5,598 nt of DNA from an uncultured Sphingorhabdus sp. (GTDB lineage: Bacteria; Pseudomonadota; Alphaproteobacteria; Sphingomonadales; Sphingomonadaceae), in assembly GCA_937873665.1 (NCBI GenBank), contig CALMYW010000213.1, positions 1-5,598 of the forward strand. Reading direction: 5' to 3'. Shown one piece after another: positions 1 to 5,465 of this stretch. How positions within the stretch are numbered: position 1 is the stretch's first letter; the number at the start of each line of letters is the position of its first letter. A program made the translations under genes and the position numbers. The notes beneath the pieces were generated by a model, which was not told the origin of the DNA, ran no database searches, and saw nothing but the letters and a program-made list of their open reading frames with translations.

Positions 1-253
1 CCTTTAACCGGATGACCGGGCCAGGTGTCGCACCGTTGATGCCGATGGCATGCCCCTCACGTCCGCCGACCCGGAGCGAGGCATGACCGATGGATAGTGC
101 GATTTGCTCCCCGGACACCACGGACATCGGGCCTGCGAGGCCAGGAGTTCCACTGCGCGCCCACGCGGGGAGCGCTGCCGAAAGCGCGAGGCCCCCGCCC
201 CCCAAGGCAGCCGAACGAATGAGGGTACGGCGATCGAGCGCAAAAGAATGCAT
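1..253 (-). CDS. copA: Copper-resistance multicopper oxidase (PcoA/CopA family), N-terminal part
   Basis: This is the first 84 residues of a protein cut by the left edge. ATG is at 253, and an in-frame stop at 281-283 limits any extension. Residues 1-32 form a Tat signal: a twin arginine in DRRTLIR (R8, R9), a Gly/Ala/Leu-rich stretch, and an Ala-x-Ala-type end near PAWA. The mature part reads like the first cupredoxin strand of CopA/PcoA oxidases, ending with INGATPGPVIRLK (compare the family's VNG..P.P..R). The copper-ligand motifs lie outside the window. Members of this family are exported folded to the periplasm and oxidise Cu(I) or sequester copper. The gene follows the sigma-factor gene by 61 bases and has its own ECF-type promoter in that gap. 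No clear Shine-Dalgarno sequence is visible. The family shares the name copA with the copper ATPases. copB often follows in such operons, but this cannot be seen here. Confidence 0.85.
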   Translation of the reverse strand, partial: MHSFALDRRTLIRSAALGGGGLALSAALPAWARSGTPGLAGPMSVVSGEQIALSIGHASLRVGGREGHAIGINGATPGPVIRLK

Positions 254-289: not shown

Positions 290-317
290 TCTACGCAGCC
301 GCTTTCCCTAGCCCTCA
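290..317 (-). promoter_or_regulatory. Predicted ECF-sigma promoter of the multicopper oxidase gene
   Basis: On the minus strand, TGAGGG (317 to 312) and CGTAGA (295 to 290) are separated by exactly 16 bases. The same hexamer, spacing and GGC[CT]GCGTA context occur before the cnrY-like gene and before copC. The TGA of the -35 element is also the stop codon of the sigma-factor gene. A transcript starting about 7 bases past the -10 would have a leader of about 30 bases before the ATG at 253. Promoter function is inferred from the repeated motif and its position. Confidence 0.7.
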
Positions 318-884
318 GATCTGGTCGCCAAGCATCGCCTTTAATTTCCCCCTGGCCCGGTAGAGGCGGGTCTCGACCGTCTTCTCGCTGACACCGAGCA
401 CGTCGGCAGCTTCGGCCTGGCCGAGGCCATCGATCGTGCGGAGGACCAGGGCCTCGCGCAGACGGGATGGCAAGCGGGATATGGCAGCGGTCACGCGCGC
501 CAGTTCGGCCCGGTCTGCCGCTTGCACATCGGCGGGAATGGCATCGTCTGAAACATCGAAAGCCATCTCGAGCGGCACTGCGCGCGTGAAGAAGGCGCGC
601 ACCTTGCGCCTTCGTCCCCAGTCCCTGCACTTGTTGAGCGCGATGTGCTTGAGCCATGCCACAAACGGTCGCCCATGGTCGTAACGCCCAAGAGCCGAGA
701 AAGCGGCAATGAAGGTTTCCTGGGTGACGTCGAGGGCCTCGTGCGGATCGCCGACTGACGCTCGCACCAAGCGAAACACAGCGTCACGGTGGCGCGCCAG
801 CAATTCGCGATAAGCGTCCTGCCGGCCCGCGAGCGCCAGTGCCGCGAGCTCGCCGTCGCTCCCCTCGGACAGCGGAAGGCTCAC
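315..884 (-). CDS. ECF sigma-70 family RNA polymerase sigma factor, CnrH-like
   Basis: The protein has 189 residues, the usual ECF size. Sigma region 2 spans about residues 24-92 and contains DVTQETFIAAFSALGRY and the FVAWLKHIALNKCRD segment (core binding, -10 recognition). Region 4 spans about 128-185, with LPSRLREALVLR followed by a helix-turn-helix (AEAADVLGVSEKTVETRLYRAR) for -35 recognition. There is no long C-terminal sensory extension, so control should come from a separate anti-sigma protein. The start is GTG at 884, inside a GTGA overlap with the stop of the upstream sensor gene, which suggests translational coupling. Gene order (small membrane protein, CnrX-like sensor, sigma) matches cnrYXH of Cupriavidus, where CnrH is held by CnrY until CnrX senses metal. 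The likely targets are the three TGAGGG-N16-CGTA promoters in this window. Assignment as an ECF sigma is secure; the CnrH subgroup rests on context. Confidence 0.93.
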   Translation of the reverse strand: MSLPLSEGSDGELAALALAGRQDAYRELLARHRDAVFRLVRASVGDPHEALDVTQETFIAAFSALGRYDHGRPFVAWLKHIALNKCRDWGRRRKVRAFFTRAVPLEMAFDVSDDAIPADVQAADRAELARVTAAISRLPSRLREALVLRTIDGLGQAEAADVLGVSEKTVETRLYRARGKLKAMLGDQI

Positions 885-1321
885 CGCACTTCTGGGGTAA
901 GGGCTCTGGTAACCGACCTGTCGAATTTGGCCGCCTGATCAGGCCTCAGGACGGCGCGCATGGCAAAGAGATGCTCAAGCGTTTCCTTCTGCATTTCACC
1001 CATGACCTTGTGGGTGTGGTCGATGGCGGCCGTGACTTGCGGACCATAGCCGTGTTCCACTTCCATCGCTTCGGCCAGATGGGCATTGGCGGCCCGCATC
1101 TCGAGTTCGAGCGCCTTGCGGCGTGTGGCAAAACGCTGCTCGATTGCCTCGATCTTTGCTTCCTGTGCGGCATCGAGTTCGAGCTCGCTGTGCAGCAAGG
1201 CGTGGAGTTCGGTCTCGCTCTGCCTTTCCGGTGCGAACAGGACGCGGCCAGCATAAGTGCCGCCCAGCGCCGCCGCAAATGCGACAAGCGCGATCAGGAT
1301 CAGCCGCGTGGTCCAATTCAC
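881..1321 (-). CDS. CnrX-like membrane-anchored periplasmic metal sensor (heavy-metal resistance family)
   Basis: This 146-residue protein has one N-terminal membrane segment (about residues 6-28) followed by a charged, helical periplasmic domain. The fold type is the CnrX/Spy-like helical hairpin. The CnrX site, known from Cupriavidus as H42, H46, E63, H119 and M123, is fully matched here by H40, H44, E61, H117 and M121, with the same intervals. The surrounding helices (LHALLHSEL, EAIEQRFATRRKALE, TLEHLFAMRAVL) also read as CnrX-type. In the cnr system CnrX binds metal in the periplasm and relieves inhibition of the sigma factor by CnrY. The start is GTG at 1321 in a GTGA overlap with the upstream gene, and its stop overlaps the sigma-factor GTG. 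Because every neighbour is a copper gene, the physiological ligand is probably copper, but the five ligands alone would also suit Ni(II) or Co(II). Confidence 0.85.
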   Translation of the reverse strand: MNWTTRLILIALVAFAAALGGTYAGRVLFAPERQSETELHALLHSELELDAAQEAKIEAIEQRFATRRKALELEMRAANAHLAEAMEVEHGYGPQVTAAIDHTHKVMGEMQKETLEHLFAMRAVLRPDQAAKFDRSVTRALTPEVR

Positions 1322-1596
1322 GGGTGGACATCCAGCAAGGTCGAAGGTGCGAGGGGATTGTCAGGCGCAAAGGGAGAGATGGGCTGAGCCGTGGCGGGTT
1401 CGCCGCCCGCCAGTCCGCCACCGGCTACGCCGACCACCAGCGCCAGGGCTGCGGCAAAACCCATCAGCCGCGACCCGGCCGCAGCCTCACGGCGGCTCGC
1501 AGCCAGTCCGGCAAGCACAGCATCGTCGATAGTCGCCAGCCCCGAAGGAGCCGGAAGTGTGCCCAGGCGGCGGAGCGCCTGATCAAGGTCGGACAT
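1318..1596 (-). CDS. Small single-pass membrane protein, candidate CnrY-like anti-sigma factor
   Basis: The product has 92 residues. It has a cytoplasmic N-terminus of about 42 residues with a predicted helix (MSDLDQALRRLG) and SRR before the membrane, one membrane segment (about 45-64), and a short Pro-rich periplasmic tail ending APSTLLDVHP. Size and layout fit CnrY (about 95 residues, cytosolic sigma-binding part, one membrane pass, short tail), although I see no strong residue-level identity. The role is inferred from layout and from being first in a Y-X-H gene set, with its stop overlapping the GTG of the CnrX-like gene. ATG at 1596 was chosen because GGGAGA lies 6 bases upstream. The longer reading frame from 1671 would run through the promoter and gives an unlikely N-terminal extension. 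Typical annotation would be hypothetical protein. Confidence 0.75.
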   Translation of the reverse strand: MSDLDQALRRLGTLPAPSGLATIDDAVLAGLAASRREAAAGSRLMGFAAALALVVGVAGGGLAGGEPATAQPISPFAPDNPLAPSTLLDVHP

Positions 1597-1602
1597 GGTG
1601 GG

Positions 1603-1608
1603 TCTCCC
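1603..1608 (-). promoter_or_regulatory. Ribosome binding site deciding the cnrY-like start
   Basis: GGGAGA on the minus strand lies 6 bases before ATG at 1596. It selects this start over the in-frame ATG at 1671, which lies upstream of the predicted promoter. Confidence 0.7.
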
Positions 1609-1623
1609 GAGGTCTTGTGATCC

Positions 1624-1651
1624 TATACGCAGCCATATCCCCGATCCCTCA
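1624..1651 (-). promoter_or_regulatory. Predicted ECF-sigma promoter of the Y-X-H regulatory operon
   Basis: On the minus strand TGAGGG (1651 to 1646) and CGTATA (1629 to 1624) are 16 bases apart. It aligns closely with the promoter before the oxidase gene: both share CTGAGGG at the -35 and GGCTGCGTA at the -10. A start about 7 bases downstream of the -10 would leave a leader of about 20 bases with the GGGAGA ribosome site. If the local sigma factor uses it, the operon is positively autoregulated. The function is inferred. Confidence 0.72.
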
Positions 1652-1673
1652 GAAAAATTGAACCAGCCCAATT

Positions 1674-1701
1674 TGAGGGATGCTGTTCCGGGCCGCGTAT
1701 C
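1674..1701 (+). promoter_or_regulatory. Predicted ECF-sigma promoter of copCD
   Basis: TGAGGG (1674-1679) is followed after exactly 16 bases by CGTATC (1696-1701), the third copy of the motif in the window and the only one on the plus strand. The expected transcript start near 1708 gives a leader of about 27 bases containing a good ribosome site. Its -35 faces the -35 of the regulatory-operon promoter, 22 bases away. The function is inferred from the repeated motif. Confidence 0.72.
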
Positions 1702-1734: not shown

Positions 1735-2118
1735 ATGCGTTTGCCCAGCCTTGCCTTTGCCGTTGCGACTCTGGGGCTCATCGTGCCGCAGGTAGCCAGC
1801 GCGCATACGCAGCTCGTGTCTTCGACCCCGACAGCCAATGCCACGGTCGCAGCGCCGACAAAGGTCGAACTGCGCTTCAATGAGGCCGTGATCGGCGCAA
1901 CGGCAAGGGCCGAGATCGCAATGACCGGAATGCCGGGTATGGCAAACCATGCGCCGATGCCGATCACGGGTTTCACCGCCCGGCTTGGCAATGACAGGAA
2001 ATCGATGACGTTGCTGCTCCGTCGGCCGCTTGCCAGCGGGACTTACCGCGTGACCTGGAGCGCGGCCGGAGCCGACACGCATCGCATGGGCGGCAACTTC
2101 AGCTTCACCGTACGCTGA
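1735..2118 (+). CDS. copC: Periplasmic copper-binding protein CopC
   Basis: The protein has 127 residues, with a signal peptide of residues 1-23 ending in Ala-Ser-Ala, so the mature protein begins with H24. CopC proteins bind Cu(II) through the N-terminal histidine plus an Asp-x-His pair; here these are H24 and D114/H116 in GADTHRMGGNFSF. A methionine-rich loop, M63, M66, M69, H72 and M75, matches the Cu(I) site of Pseudomonas CopC. Both sites therefore appear present, as in classical two-site CopC. The loop carries one extra residue before its His and last Met compared with my recollection of the Pseudomonas protein. The body is a small cupredoxin-like beta barrel typical of the family. CopC is thought to carry copper in the periplasm and pass it to CopD. 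copD starts 4 bases after the copC stop, so the two are co-transcribed, probably from the ECF-type promoter at 1674-1701. Confidence 0.95.
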   Translation: MRLPSLAFAVATLGLIVPQVASAHTQLVSSTPTANATVAAPTKVELRFNEAVIGATARAEIAMTGMPGMANHAPMPITGFTARLGNDRKSMTLLLRRPLASGTYRVTWSAAGADTHRMGGNFSFTVR

Positions 2119-2122
2119 AGAC

Positions 2123-3055
2123 ATGGACAACCTGCCTGTCATCGCCATCCGGTTCGCGCTTTACGCCGACCTGATGGTGCTGGCAGGTGTGACGGCCTTC
2201 TCGCTTTACGCGCTGAAACCCGAGGAGCGAGGCACTGCCTTGCTGCCGCTGGCCAAACCTGCCCTCCTCCTTTCGCTGCTCGGACTGCTGCTGTCCGGCG
2301 GCGGCATGATCGCACTTGTCGCAGCCATGACCGGGACAAGCCTCTGGGCAGTCGATGGCTCGGCCTTCAGGGAAATCGTTACACAGAGCGCCATCGGCAG
2401 CGCCTGGGTCGTGCGCATGGCGGCAGTTGCAATTGCCCTGCTTGCCGCCCTGGCGCTTGGCCGAAGCCCACACCTTGCAAGATACTGTCTGCTTGCCTCG
2501 GCTGTGCTTGCCATCGCCACGCTGGTTTGGACTGGCCATGCCGGTGCAACCGAAGGGTGGACTGGATCCCTCCACCGGCTGAGCGACATCGTCCACATGC
2601 TGGCGGCGGCTGTATGGATCGGCGGAATTGCCGCGTTCTCCTGGCTGCTTTTTCAGCCATTGGCGCACCAATCCGATGCGCAGATCAGGATCGCGCATCG
2701 GGCGCTTGAACAATTCTCGCGGGTTGGGACGCTTGCGGTCGGGTTGATCGTTCTCACGGGCATCATCAACAGCCTGAGCCTGATGGGCTTGCCGCATCCC
2801 TACGCCTTGTTCGCTTCGCGCTACGGCCAACTCCTGCTTATCAAGCTCGCCCTGTTTGCTGCAATGCTGATGCTGGCGGGTGTCAACCGCTGGCGGCTGA
2901 CACCCGCTCTTGGTGCAGCCATCGCCAACGGCAATCCGGTCCCCGCGTTACGTGGTCTTCGGCAAAGCCTGGTTCTGGAAACGTCCACAGTGCTTACGAT
3001 CCTCGCCGTGGTGGCCTGGCTGGGTACACTGGAGCCGATCATGGCGTACGGGTGA
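2123..3055 (+). CDS. copD: Copper-resistance inner-membrane protein CopD
   Basis: This 310-residue, very hydrophobic protein has about eight membrane segments (roughly 8-30, 45-68, 93-113, 119-138, 153-178, 199-220, 236-256, 286-304). Family marks include GHA at 138-140, the histidine-bearing segment [19 protein letters not shown] (H151, H158), the [18 protein letters not shown] segment, the LLIKLALF...NRWRLTP block and a C-terminal ET....A.V.W.GTLEP helix. CopD proteins are proposed to take copper across the inner membrane together with CopC, or to help load periplasmic copper enzymes; the mechanism is not settled. ATG at 2123 follows the copC stop by 4 bases with no clear ribosome site, so translation is probably coupled. 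The length is typical for stand-alone CopD, not a CopC-CopD fusion. The next gene is 64 bases away behind its own promoter. Confidence 0.93.
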
Positions 3056-3063
3056 ATTACCAC

Positions 3064-3094
3064 TTGACCCTGACATGATGTCAAGGTTGATGAG
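3064..3094 (+). promoter_or_regulatory. Predicted MerR/CueR-type copper-responsive promoter and operator
   Basis: A -35 TTGACC (3064-3069) is followed by a 19-base spacer and a weak -10 candidate GATGAG (3089-3094). Within it lies a 21-base dyad, ACCCTGACAT / G / ATGTCAAGGT (3067-3087), whose arms match at 9 of 10 positions. It starts at the A of TTGACC, the same register as the CueR site of the E. coli copA promoter. Over-long spacers with an ACC...GGT dyad are the hallmark of MerR-family activators. The regulator is not encoded in the window. The poor -10 match is the main weakness. Confidence 0.72.
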
Positions 3095-3119: not shown

Positions 3120-5465
3120 ATGACCGAGTCGCATCATGACCATGCGAAATGCGCCCATTCCGGATCGAAGGCTCCAGGAACGGTGATTGACCCCGTCTGC
3201 GGAATGAGCGTCGATTCTGCGACGACCACGCATGTAGCGACCCATGACGGCGTCCATCACTACTTTTGCAGCGCTGCCTGTCTAACCAAGTTCAAGGCCG
3301 ACCCATCACGCTATATGAGCGATGCGCCGCGACCGGCAGAGCCGGTGCCAGACGGCGCGATCTGGACCTGTCCGATGCATCCGGAGGTCCAGCAGTCCGG
3401 GCCGGGAAGCTGCCCGATCTGCGGCATGGCCTTGGAACCGATGACGCCGACGCTCAACGATGGACCGTCGCCCGAATATGCCGACATGAAGCGGCGCTTT
3501 GTAATCGGCCTCATCCTCGCTTTGCCGGTGGTTGCGCTCGAAATGGGCGGGCATCTGACCGGACTGCGCCATTATCTGGATGGAAACATCGCCAACCTGA
3601 TCCAGATGGTTCTGGCGACGCCGGTGGTCCTGTGGGCGGGCTGGCCATTTTTCGAACGCGGCTGGGCCTCGGTGAAAAGCCGCCACCTCAACATGTTCAC
3701 CCTGATTGCGATGGGAACGGGCGTTGCCTGGATCTACAGCATCGCGGCGGCGCTCGCGCCCGGTATGTTCCCGCCCGCGTTTCGCGCAATGGACGGCTCA
3801 GTCGCGGTCTATTTCGAGGCGGCTGCGGTCATTACCGTGCTGGTCTTGCTTGGCCAACTGCTTGAACTGCGTGCCCGGGAAACAACCAGCGGTGCGATTC
3901 GCGCATTGCTCGACCTTTCGCCCAAGCTCGCCCGCCGGGTTCGTCCTGATGGTAGTGACGAGGAGATCACACTCCACCAGGTTCTGGTCGGCGACACGCT
4001 CCGCGTTCGCCCAGGCGAGAAGGTTCCGGTTGATGGCGTGGTGCTGGAGGGCCGCGGCACGGTCGATGAATCGATGGTGACTGGCGAGTCCATGCCGGTG
4101 ACCAAGGAGGCTGCGTCGAAGCTGATCGGTGGCACGATCAACCAGACCGGCGGCCTCGTGATGCGCGCCGAGAAGATCGGGCGCGACACCATGCTGGCGC
4201 GCATCGTCCAGATGGTAGCAGAAGCCCAGCGCAGTCGTGCGCCGATCCAGCGGCTTGCCGACACCGTGTCGGGCTGGTTCGTGCCGGCGGTGATCGCGGT
4301 CTCAGCGATCGCGTTCGTCGTCTGGTCCCTGGTCGGCCCATCGCCGGCAATGGGCTATGGCCTGATTGCAGCGGTGGCCGTGCTGATCATCGCCTGCCCC
4401 TGTGCGCTTGGCCTCGCGACCCCGATGTCGATCATGGTGGGGGTCGGACGCGGCGCGCAGGCCGGTATCCTTATCAAGAACGCCGAGGCGCTCGAACGCA
4501 TGGAGAAGGTCGATACGCTTGTCGTCGACAAGACCGGCACGCTCACCGAAGGCAAGCCCGCGGTGGTTGCGATCGAGACGGCCGAAGGGTTCGACAGCCA
4601 AGAGGTTCTGCGCCTTGCCGCGAGCCTCGAACGCAGCAGCGAGCATCCGCTGGCCCTGGCGATTGTCAGGGATGCAGAAGCCAAGGGGCTCGCAATCAGC
4701 GAACCGGGCGACGTCGATCAGCCAGTCGGCAAGGGTATCACCGGCATCGTCGATGGACATCGGCTTATTGCTGGAAATGCCGGCTTTCTTGAGGAACAAG
4801 GGGTCTCGACTGCCGAACTGGCGCAACGTGCTGCCGTCCTGCGCGCTGACGGGGCGACCGCAATTTTCCTTGGCATAGATGGTAAGGTTGCGGGTGCCAT
4901 CGGCATTGCCGATCAGGTTAAGCAGACTACGCCTGCCGCGCTCAAGGCGCTGGCCGAAGCGGGGATCCATGTCATCATGTTGACCGGAGACAATCGCGTC
5001 ACGGCAGAGGCCATCGCGCGGCGGCTTGGCATCGACGACGTCGAAGCCGATGTGTTGCCAGACCAGAAGAGCGCGATCGTCAAGCGCTTGAGGGACAAAG
5101 GCAGAATCGTGGCGATGGCAGGCGACGGTGTGAACGACGCCCCTGCGCTTGCCGCTGCCGATGTCGGCATCGCCATGGGCACCGGCACAGACGTTGCGAT
5201 TGAAAGCGCAGGCATCACACTGCTCAAGGGCGATTTGACGGGGATAGCGCGTGCCCGGCACCTCAGTCATGCAACCATGACCAACATCCGGCAGAACCTG
5301 TTCTTCGCCTTTGCCTACAACGTCGCTGGTATCCCGGTGGCTGCGGGCGCGCTCTACCCGCTGTTCGGCATCATGCTTTCACCGATCATCGCAGCGGCGG
5401 CGATGGCGCTTTCCTCGGTCAGCGTCATCGGCAATTCGCTGCGTCTCAGGAGGATTGCGCTATGA
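3120..5465 (+). CDS. Cu(I)-exporting P1B-1-type ATPase with YHS and heavy-metal-binding N-terminal domains
   Basis: This 781-residue protein pumps Cu(I) out of the cytoplasm using ATP. The N-terminus is His-rich (HHDH), then a YHS domain (about 22-66: DPVCGM with C27, then C50 and C54) and a short heavy-metal-binding domain (about 81-107: WTCPMHPEV...SCPICGM). No classical HMA (GMTCxxC) domain is present. Core motifs are TGES (321-324, actuator), CPC (426-428, membrane metal site), DKTGT with phospho-acceptor D470, SSEHPLA (H509, P510), TGDN (622-625) and GDGVNDAP (668-675). TM7 fits N-x6-YN-x4-P (N726 to P739) and TM8 fits P-x6-M-x2-SS-x5-N (P755 to N772), the Cu(I) signature. The start at 3120 is set by the ribosome site; the frame stays open from 2910 but that part lies over copD. 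Its stop overlaps the next ATG. Such pumps are named copA, copF or silP-like; the symbol is left open to avoid confusion with the oxidase. Confidence 0.95.

Follow-up and report, generated by a model that had tools for sequence, protein, structure and literature searches.

A CnrH-like ECF sigma factor and three TGAGGG-N16-CGTA elements predicted to form a local, self-activating copper regulon in sphingomonads

The closest described relatives of the locus analysed here are CnrYXH, from plasmid pMOL28 of Cupriavidus metallidurans, and NccYXH, both of which share with it the gene order Y-X-sigma. Without cnrH, nickel and cobalt resistance falls, and transcription of cnrC starts past the cnrH gene (available text of PMC4803752). 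The transcript starts of cnrY and cnrC are placed at 53286 and 54660 of pMOL28 in the available text of PMC9045368, which describes cnrYp once as non-RpoD and once as RpoD-dependent; a table in the available part of PMC11647585 tags the start at 53286 as RpoD. On the pMOL28 sequence, these mapped starts are 8-9 bases past the CGTA of CAAGGG-N17-CGTA and CGAGGG-N17-CGTA. A copper-answering, self-activating ECF sigma factor has also been described, SigAb of Acinetobacter (available text of PMC12153292).

The window, which is the whole 5,598-nucleotide stretch of contig CALMYW010000213.1 that was analysed, shows a Y-X-sigma cluster on the minus strand between genes for copper handling, and contains the following features.

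2..253, minus strand: beginning of a CopA-type multicopper oxidase gene that runs past the window edge
292-317, minus strand: TGAGGG-N16-CGTA, predicted sigma-dependent promoter of the multicopper oxidase copA/copB operon
315..884, minus strand: ECF sigma factor, CnrH-like (Sigma70_r2 and r4_2; best PDB match CnrH 4cxf_A)
881..1321, minus strand: CnrX-like periplasmic metal sensor X (matches 3zg1 and NccX 4clv)
1318..1596, minus strand: small membrane protein Y, presumed anti-sigma factor (gene order, CnrY position and size)
1626-1651, minus strand: TGAGGG-N16-CGTA, predicted autoregulatory sigma-dependent promoter of the Y-X-sigma operon
1674-1699, plus strand: TGAGGG-N16-CGTA, predicted promoter of copC-copD, sigma-dependent and divergent from the Y promoter
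1735..2118, plus strand: copC (PF04234, NF033814)
2123..3055, plus strand: copD (PF05425, NF033808)
3064..3083, plus strand: CueR-type operator TTGACCCTGACATGATGTCA, 5' of the ATPase gene
3120..5465, plus strand: copper/heavy-metal P-type ATPase (YHS and HMBD domains)
after the ATPase gene, plus strand: start of a DUF2933 gene

With a probability of about 0.8, the three sites are elements for the CnrH-like sigma factor and form a self-activating, locally acting copper regulon in which the ATPase gene is probably also under CueR. The sequence evidence that the sigma factor recognises the three sites is strong; sigma binding, sigma dependence and induction by copper are inferred.

Among solved structures, CnrH (4cxf) is the best match of the sigma factor (E 8.6e-35), followed by SigW (2.9e-20), and its alignment with CnrH gives 44% identity. 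X matches 3zg1 (E 2.1e-19), whose PDB entry says CnrR and which is the CnrX protein, and NccX 4clv (E 5.6e-18). Its residues H40, H44, E61, H117 and M121 correspond to H42, H46, E63, H119 and M123 of CnrX, which we take to be the metal ligands, and these five positions are invariant across eight X sequences. Judged by these matches, sigma and X are homologs of CnrH and CnrX of Cupriavidus. Y shows one hydrophobic stretch, and its size and gene position fit CnrY; a family search with Y gave no match above the cut-off, and neither phmmer nor hhalign found sequence similarity to CnrY. Y is thus presumed to be the anti-sigma factor from gene order and from its CnrY-like position and size.

Over its whole length the window is 99.1% identical to plasmid p3 of Novosphingobium sp. 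ES2-1. The oxidase gene is annotated at the same place on p3, where the full protein belongs to TIGR01480; copB comes after the oxidase gene, cueR after the ATPase cluster, and an RND cluster is 9-12 kb away. The plasmid is typed as conjugative, and just past its copper cluster it contains an ISKpn23-type transposase gene and sul1 (locus L080, 18448-21028).

The original prediction, that TGAGGG and CGTA occur in three copies each separated by exactly 16 bases, agrees with a scan of both strands, which finds precisely three exact matches in the window; 200 dinucleotide shuffles gave a mean of 0.01 matches, and no shuffle reached three. The details given with it are also borne out: T is the second base past TGAGGG at all three sites, the -10 context GGC[CT]GCGTA is present at each of them, and the remaining TGAGGG hexamers (starting at 59 on the minus strand and at 220 and 5089 on the plus strand) show no CGTA at the right distance. 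The positions were right too, except that the ranges extended two bases beyond CGTA. The distance from CGTA to the start codon is 29 bases for Y, 38 for the multicopper oxidase and 35 for copC, so that leaders of 21-31 bases, in line with the distances first proposed, would result if transcription started 8-9 bases past CGTA, an assumption taken from cnr of C. metallidurans. A scan of the window for sigma-70-type promoters found none. In 29.6 kb around the same place on p3, these are the only three sites, and no fourth appears there even with a looser -35 and N17 allowed.

The -35 hexamers of the divergent Y and copC promoters have 22 bases between them, and the exact back-to-back pair is found in 20 nonredundant loci with a -35 gap of 7 to 25 bases; two polymerases at these promoters may well exclude each other. 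In another locus (L160, 8841-8892), two tandem motif copies are located 5' of one Y gene. At the oxidase promoter, the TGA of the -35 (317-315) is the stop codon of the sigma gene. Of 66 sigma genes followed by an exact site, a count that includes near-copy loci, 38 show this overlap, 19 of them belonging to the nonredundant set; no RNA structure is supported at the overlap (z 1.65).

Loci found with the sigma protein (L001-L079) fall into two parts: all 20 loci from L001 to L020, whose sigma factors are 50-98% identical to that of the window, have at least one exact site, and the 59 loci from L021 to L079 have one motif match in all. A further 60 loci were taken from genome matches and compared with ten proteins of the cluster. 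A sigma match is present in 80 of 81 compared loci, L166 having none in that comparison, and 49 of the 80, with sigma factors less than 80% identical to each other, form the nonredundant set. Within 3 kb either side of these 49 sigma genes, and with spacers from 10 to 23 counted, N16 accounts for 107 copies in 46 loci and all other spacers together for four: one N13, one N15 and two N17. The flanking consensus is TGAGGG[GA]T-N12-TGCGTAT, which is informative only outside TGAGGG and CGTA, the sites having been chosen by the exact pattern.

Position is conserved as well. With a looser -35 ([CT][AG]AGGG) and N16 or N17, the 49 nonredundant loci show a Y-side site (same strand, 500-1500 bases before sigma, where Y begins) in 43 cases, a site just past the sigma gene in 38 and a divergent-strand site in 43. 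All three classes are present in 31 loci and at least two in 45; three loci have a single site, and one, L131, has zero by this pattern. Control spacers (11/12 and 21/22) yield at most one per site class in the same loci.

The 16-base spacing holds in most relatives, while some use 17 and three loci are mixed. Among 109 Y-X-sigma loci, searched with the looser -35, there are 238 sites with N16, 24 with N17 and three with another spacer, in a set that includes near-copies and at least one locus counted twice (L202 and L222). Scored by locus, 92 are N16, 12 are N17 and five have none. Two of those without a site by the looser pattern, L203 and L204, contain [AG]GAGGG-N16-CGTA at the same three positions. 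L174 has TGCGGG-N17-CGTA 5' of Y, and L205 shows one extra N17 match beyond the sigma gene on the opposite strand. L170, L171 and L208 mix the two spacers, which weakens a strict rule of one spacer per locus. The 17-base spacer is seen in several separate sigma lineages (L111, L163, L172, L173, L200, L202 and L223), and a quickly built tree of 75 sigma factors, which has weak branches and in which mixed loci took the majority spacer, implies no fewer than four switches between 16 and 17. A link between the spacer and the length of the sigma2-sigma4 linker was dropped: by eye there is no clean split, in printed lengths that include more than the linker alone (one anchor was not found).

The family of Novosphingobium taihuense (G001, the genome with L004) provides 298 genomes in which presence of the motif can be set against presence of the sigma factor. 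Genomes with a sigma relative at E 1e-30 or better were scored as sigma-bearing, a cut-off that misses diverged systems: 114 are positive and 184 negative. As expected from the original prediction, the motif is more frequent in the former, with a mean of 4.77 copies against 1.27, and the reversed-pattern control shows no difference (1.91 in sigma-bearing genomes, 1.72 in the others); a rank test of the motif counts gives p 5e-32, a statistic that ignores kinship. Fourteen genomes scored negative have at least four copies, and a search for the X sensor finds it in nine of them and not in the other five. Among the sigma-bearing genomes, two of 114 are without an exact copy and six have one; of these eight motif-poor genomes, G294 uses N17 (L163) and G090 (L213) shows no site even by loose patterns. 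The sigma relative at G133:C5:28168-28716 is interrupted by an in-frame TGA and may be a decayed copy. In wider samples, X relatives occur in five of 385 class-level genomes and in 17 of 398 phylum-level genomes, two and nine of which, respectively, were already in the family sample.

The oxidase genes of genomes scored as sigma-negative serve as a control. Of the 184 such genomes it draws on 50, those with the lowest numbers after removal of four that have at least four copies; a match was obtained in 32 of these 50, and 30 loci were returned, each with roughly 1.5 kb of flank. None of the 30 oxidase relatives, in genomes scored as sigma-negative, shows the site in the 400-540 bases upstream, and no sigma or X relative is present in these short loci; one of them (L265) has a motif match elsewhere. 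Because of this result and the co-occurrence counts, the motif, as far as its distribution tells, follows the sigma factor and not the copper gene. The same control bears on the notion that the motif is a by-product of coding constraint at the end of sigma, of copper-gene leader sequence or of shared ancestry. One site does share bases with the stop codon of sigma, and loci that are nearly identical show the same bases; the site nevertheless persists in L011 and L012, where it is located outside the sigma gene, most spacer positions are poorly conserved in the 49 divergent loci, and the sigma-negative oxidase genes lack it, which together make a by-product hardly credible.

From conservation and co-occurrence alone the protein that binds cannot be identified, and another copper regulator that travels with the cluster, for example a CopR-type response regulator, could in principle bind the motif; the comparison of locus neighbourhoods covered ten proteins, all from the cluster itself. 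The spacing between the two boxes is, however, nearly fixed, the distance to the start codons suits a promoter, the motif is tied to presence of the sigma factor, and it resembles the mapped CnrH promoters, so that we regard a different binding protein as very improbable and keep to recognition by the sigma factor.

The extent of the predicted regulon was assessed in 14 genomes. Of 73 exact sites, 61 are at most 16 kb from a sigma gene, 55 of them at most 3 kb, and the 61 include second, diverged copies of the system; the regulon is therefore local. The other 12 sites are elsewhere, against 28 genome-wide matches of the reversed pattern, and a wide, genome-scattered regulon was rejected on these numbers. 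The earlier idea of an ECF regulon thus stands, refined to a local rather than a genome-wide one. In six loci (L152, L153, L156, L158, L011 and L015) other genes are found behind the motif; they encode DUF2231 membrane proteins, SAM methyltransferases, a TonB-dependent receptor and an APC permease.

A second regulator probably enters at the ATPase gene. An operator of the kind of TTGACCCTGACATGATGTCA, which we take to be a CueR box, precedes 17 of 19 ATPase genes with a neighbouring cueR (eight of the 17 being near-copies of the window) and one of 26 other ATPase genes; that one is the window itself, whose cueR is just outside, as seen on p3. In this respect the window's ATPase gene, with a CueR-type operator and with cueR downstream on p3, resembles the CueR-regulated copper ATPase genes. 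CueR belongs to the MerR family of activators and acts in the cytosol, apart from the sigma system; through it, cytosolic Cu(I) probably adds a second drive to the ATPase gene. With a CueR-type operator at the ATPase gene, sigma is probably not the sole regulator of the plus-strand cluster; the proposed copper regulon keeps its sigma control, with this amendment for the ATPase behind copC and copD.

Taken as a mechanism, the three sites would be the -35/-10 elements for RNA polymerase carrying the sigma factor encoded between them. At rest, Y, together with periplasmic X, would keep sigma at the membrane. Excess periplasmic copper would bind X, Y would then release sigma, and the freed sigma would switch on Y-X-sigma, the multicopper oxidase/copB genes and copC/copD, while cytosolic copper would act separately through CueR on the ATPase.

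The identity of the signal is the least direct step: because X keeps the ligand positions of a nickel/cobalt sensor, the argument for copper as inducer comes from the target genes alone. The sites could accordingly be recognised by sigma and the signal be nickel, cobalt, zinc or general envelope stress, as the retention of all five CnrX ligand positions, which leaves the sensor site itself without a sign of a change of metal, would allow. Against this, the target neighbourhoods consist of copper genes, multicopper oxidase in 45, copB in 44 and copC in 33 of the 49 nonredundant loci, and it is in two Cupriavidus relatives that the sites instead precede RND efflux genes; a non-copper signal is for these reasons judged unlikely, and copper is preferred.

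A broader scenario, to which we would give even odds, is that a sphingomonad branch of CnrYXH has been re-dedicated from nickel/cobalt export to periplasmic copper detoxification: the unchanged five-ligand site would answer copper, the spacer would move between 16 and 17 in step with the lineage of sigma, and the stop codon of sigma would have been built into the -35 of a promoter that sigma itself fires. For copper defence, the analysis offers a promoter code, a target list and a candidate regulator; the system occurs on plasmids and on chromosome-sized contigs. Two questions arise: how a single sensor site can act for nickel in one group while acting for copper in another, and how the spacing of the promoters can shift in step with the sigma factor.

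In the literature searched, with most subscription journals outside its scope, no published regulator was found, and neither the motif nor a CnrH-type copper sigma factor is reported in sphingomonads. The working principle, that of CnrYXH, is known; as far as this literature goes, the wiring to copper is new, and so are the promoter code of the sphingomonads, with a spacer of 16 bases, and the overlap with the stop codon. SigAb differs from the system described here in its promoter (GTCAAC/CGTT), in its other anti-sigma proteins and in its indirect control of metal genes (available text of PMC12153292). Caulobacter and Asticcacaulis plasmid clusters (L172, L174 and L219) are nearer: they likewise show Y-X-sigma beside copper genes, with TGAGGG or TGCGGG and CGTAT, the two Caulobacter loci having a 17-base spacer and the Asticcacaulis locus one of 16, and they have other genes behind the sites, such as those for a copper-binding protein and a P-type ATPase. 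In CnrYXH, too, one site precedes Y and another directly follows the sigma gene, the cnrC start past cnrH being in the same place as the oxidase promoter here, and its promoters show the -10 CGTAT and the -35 core AGGG, as here; Cupriavidus USMAA2-4 repeats the N17 form. In contrast to CnrYXH, the sites here precede genes for multicopper oxidase/CopB and for CopC/CopD and not those for the CnrCBA RND pump, there is a divergent site as a third one, the spacer is 16 instead of 17, and Y has no recognisable sequence relation to CnrY. On the similarity of its genes and promoters, the system is of the CnrYXH type with copper outputs, and its motif belongs with the CnrH promoters, as a copper-wired branch.
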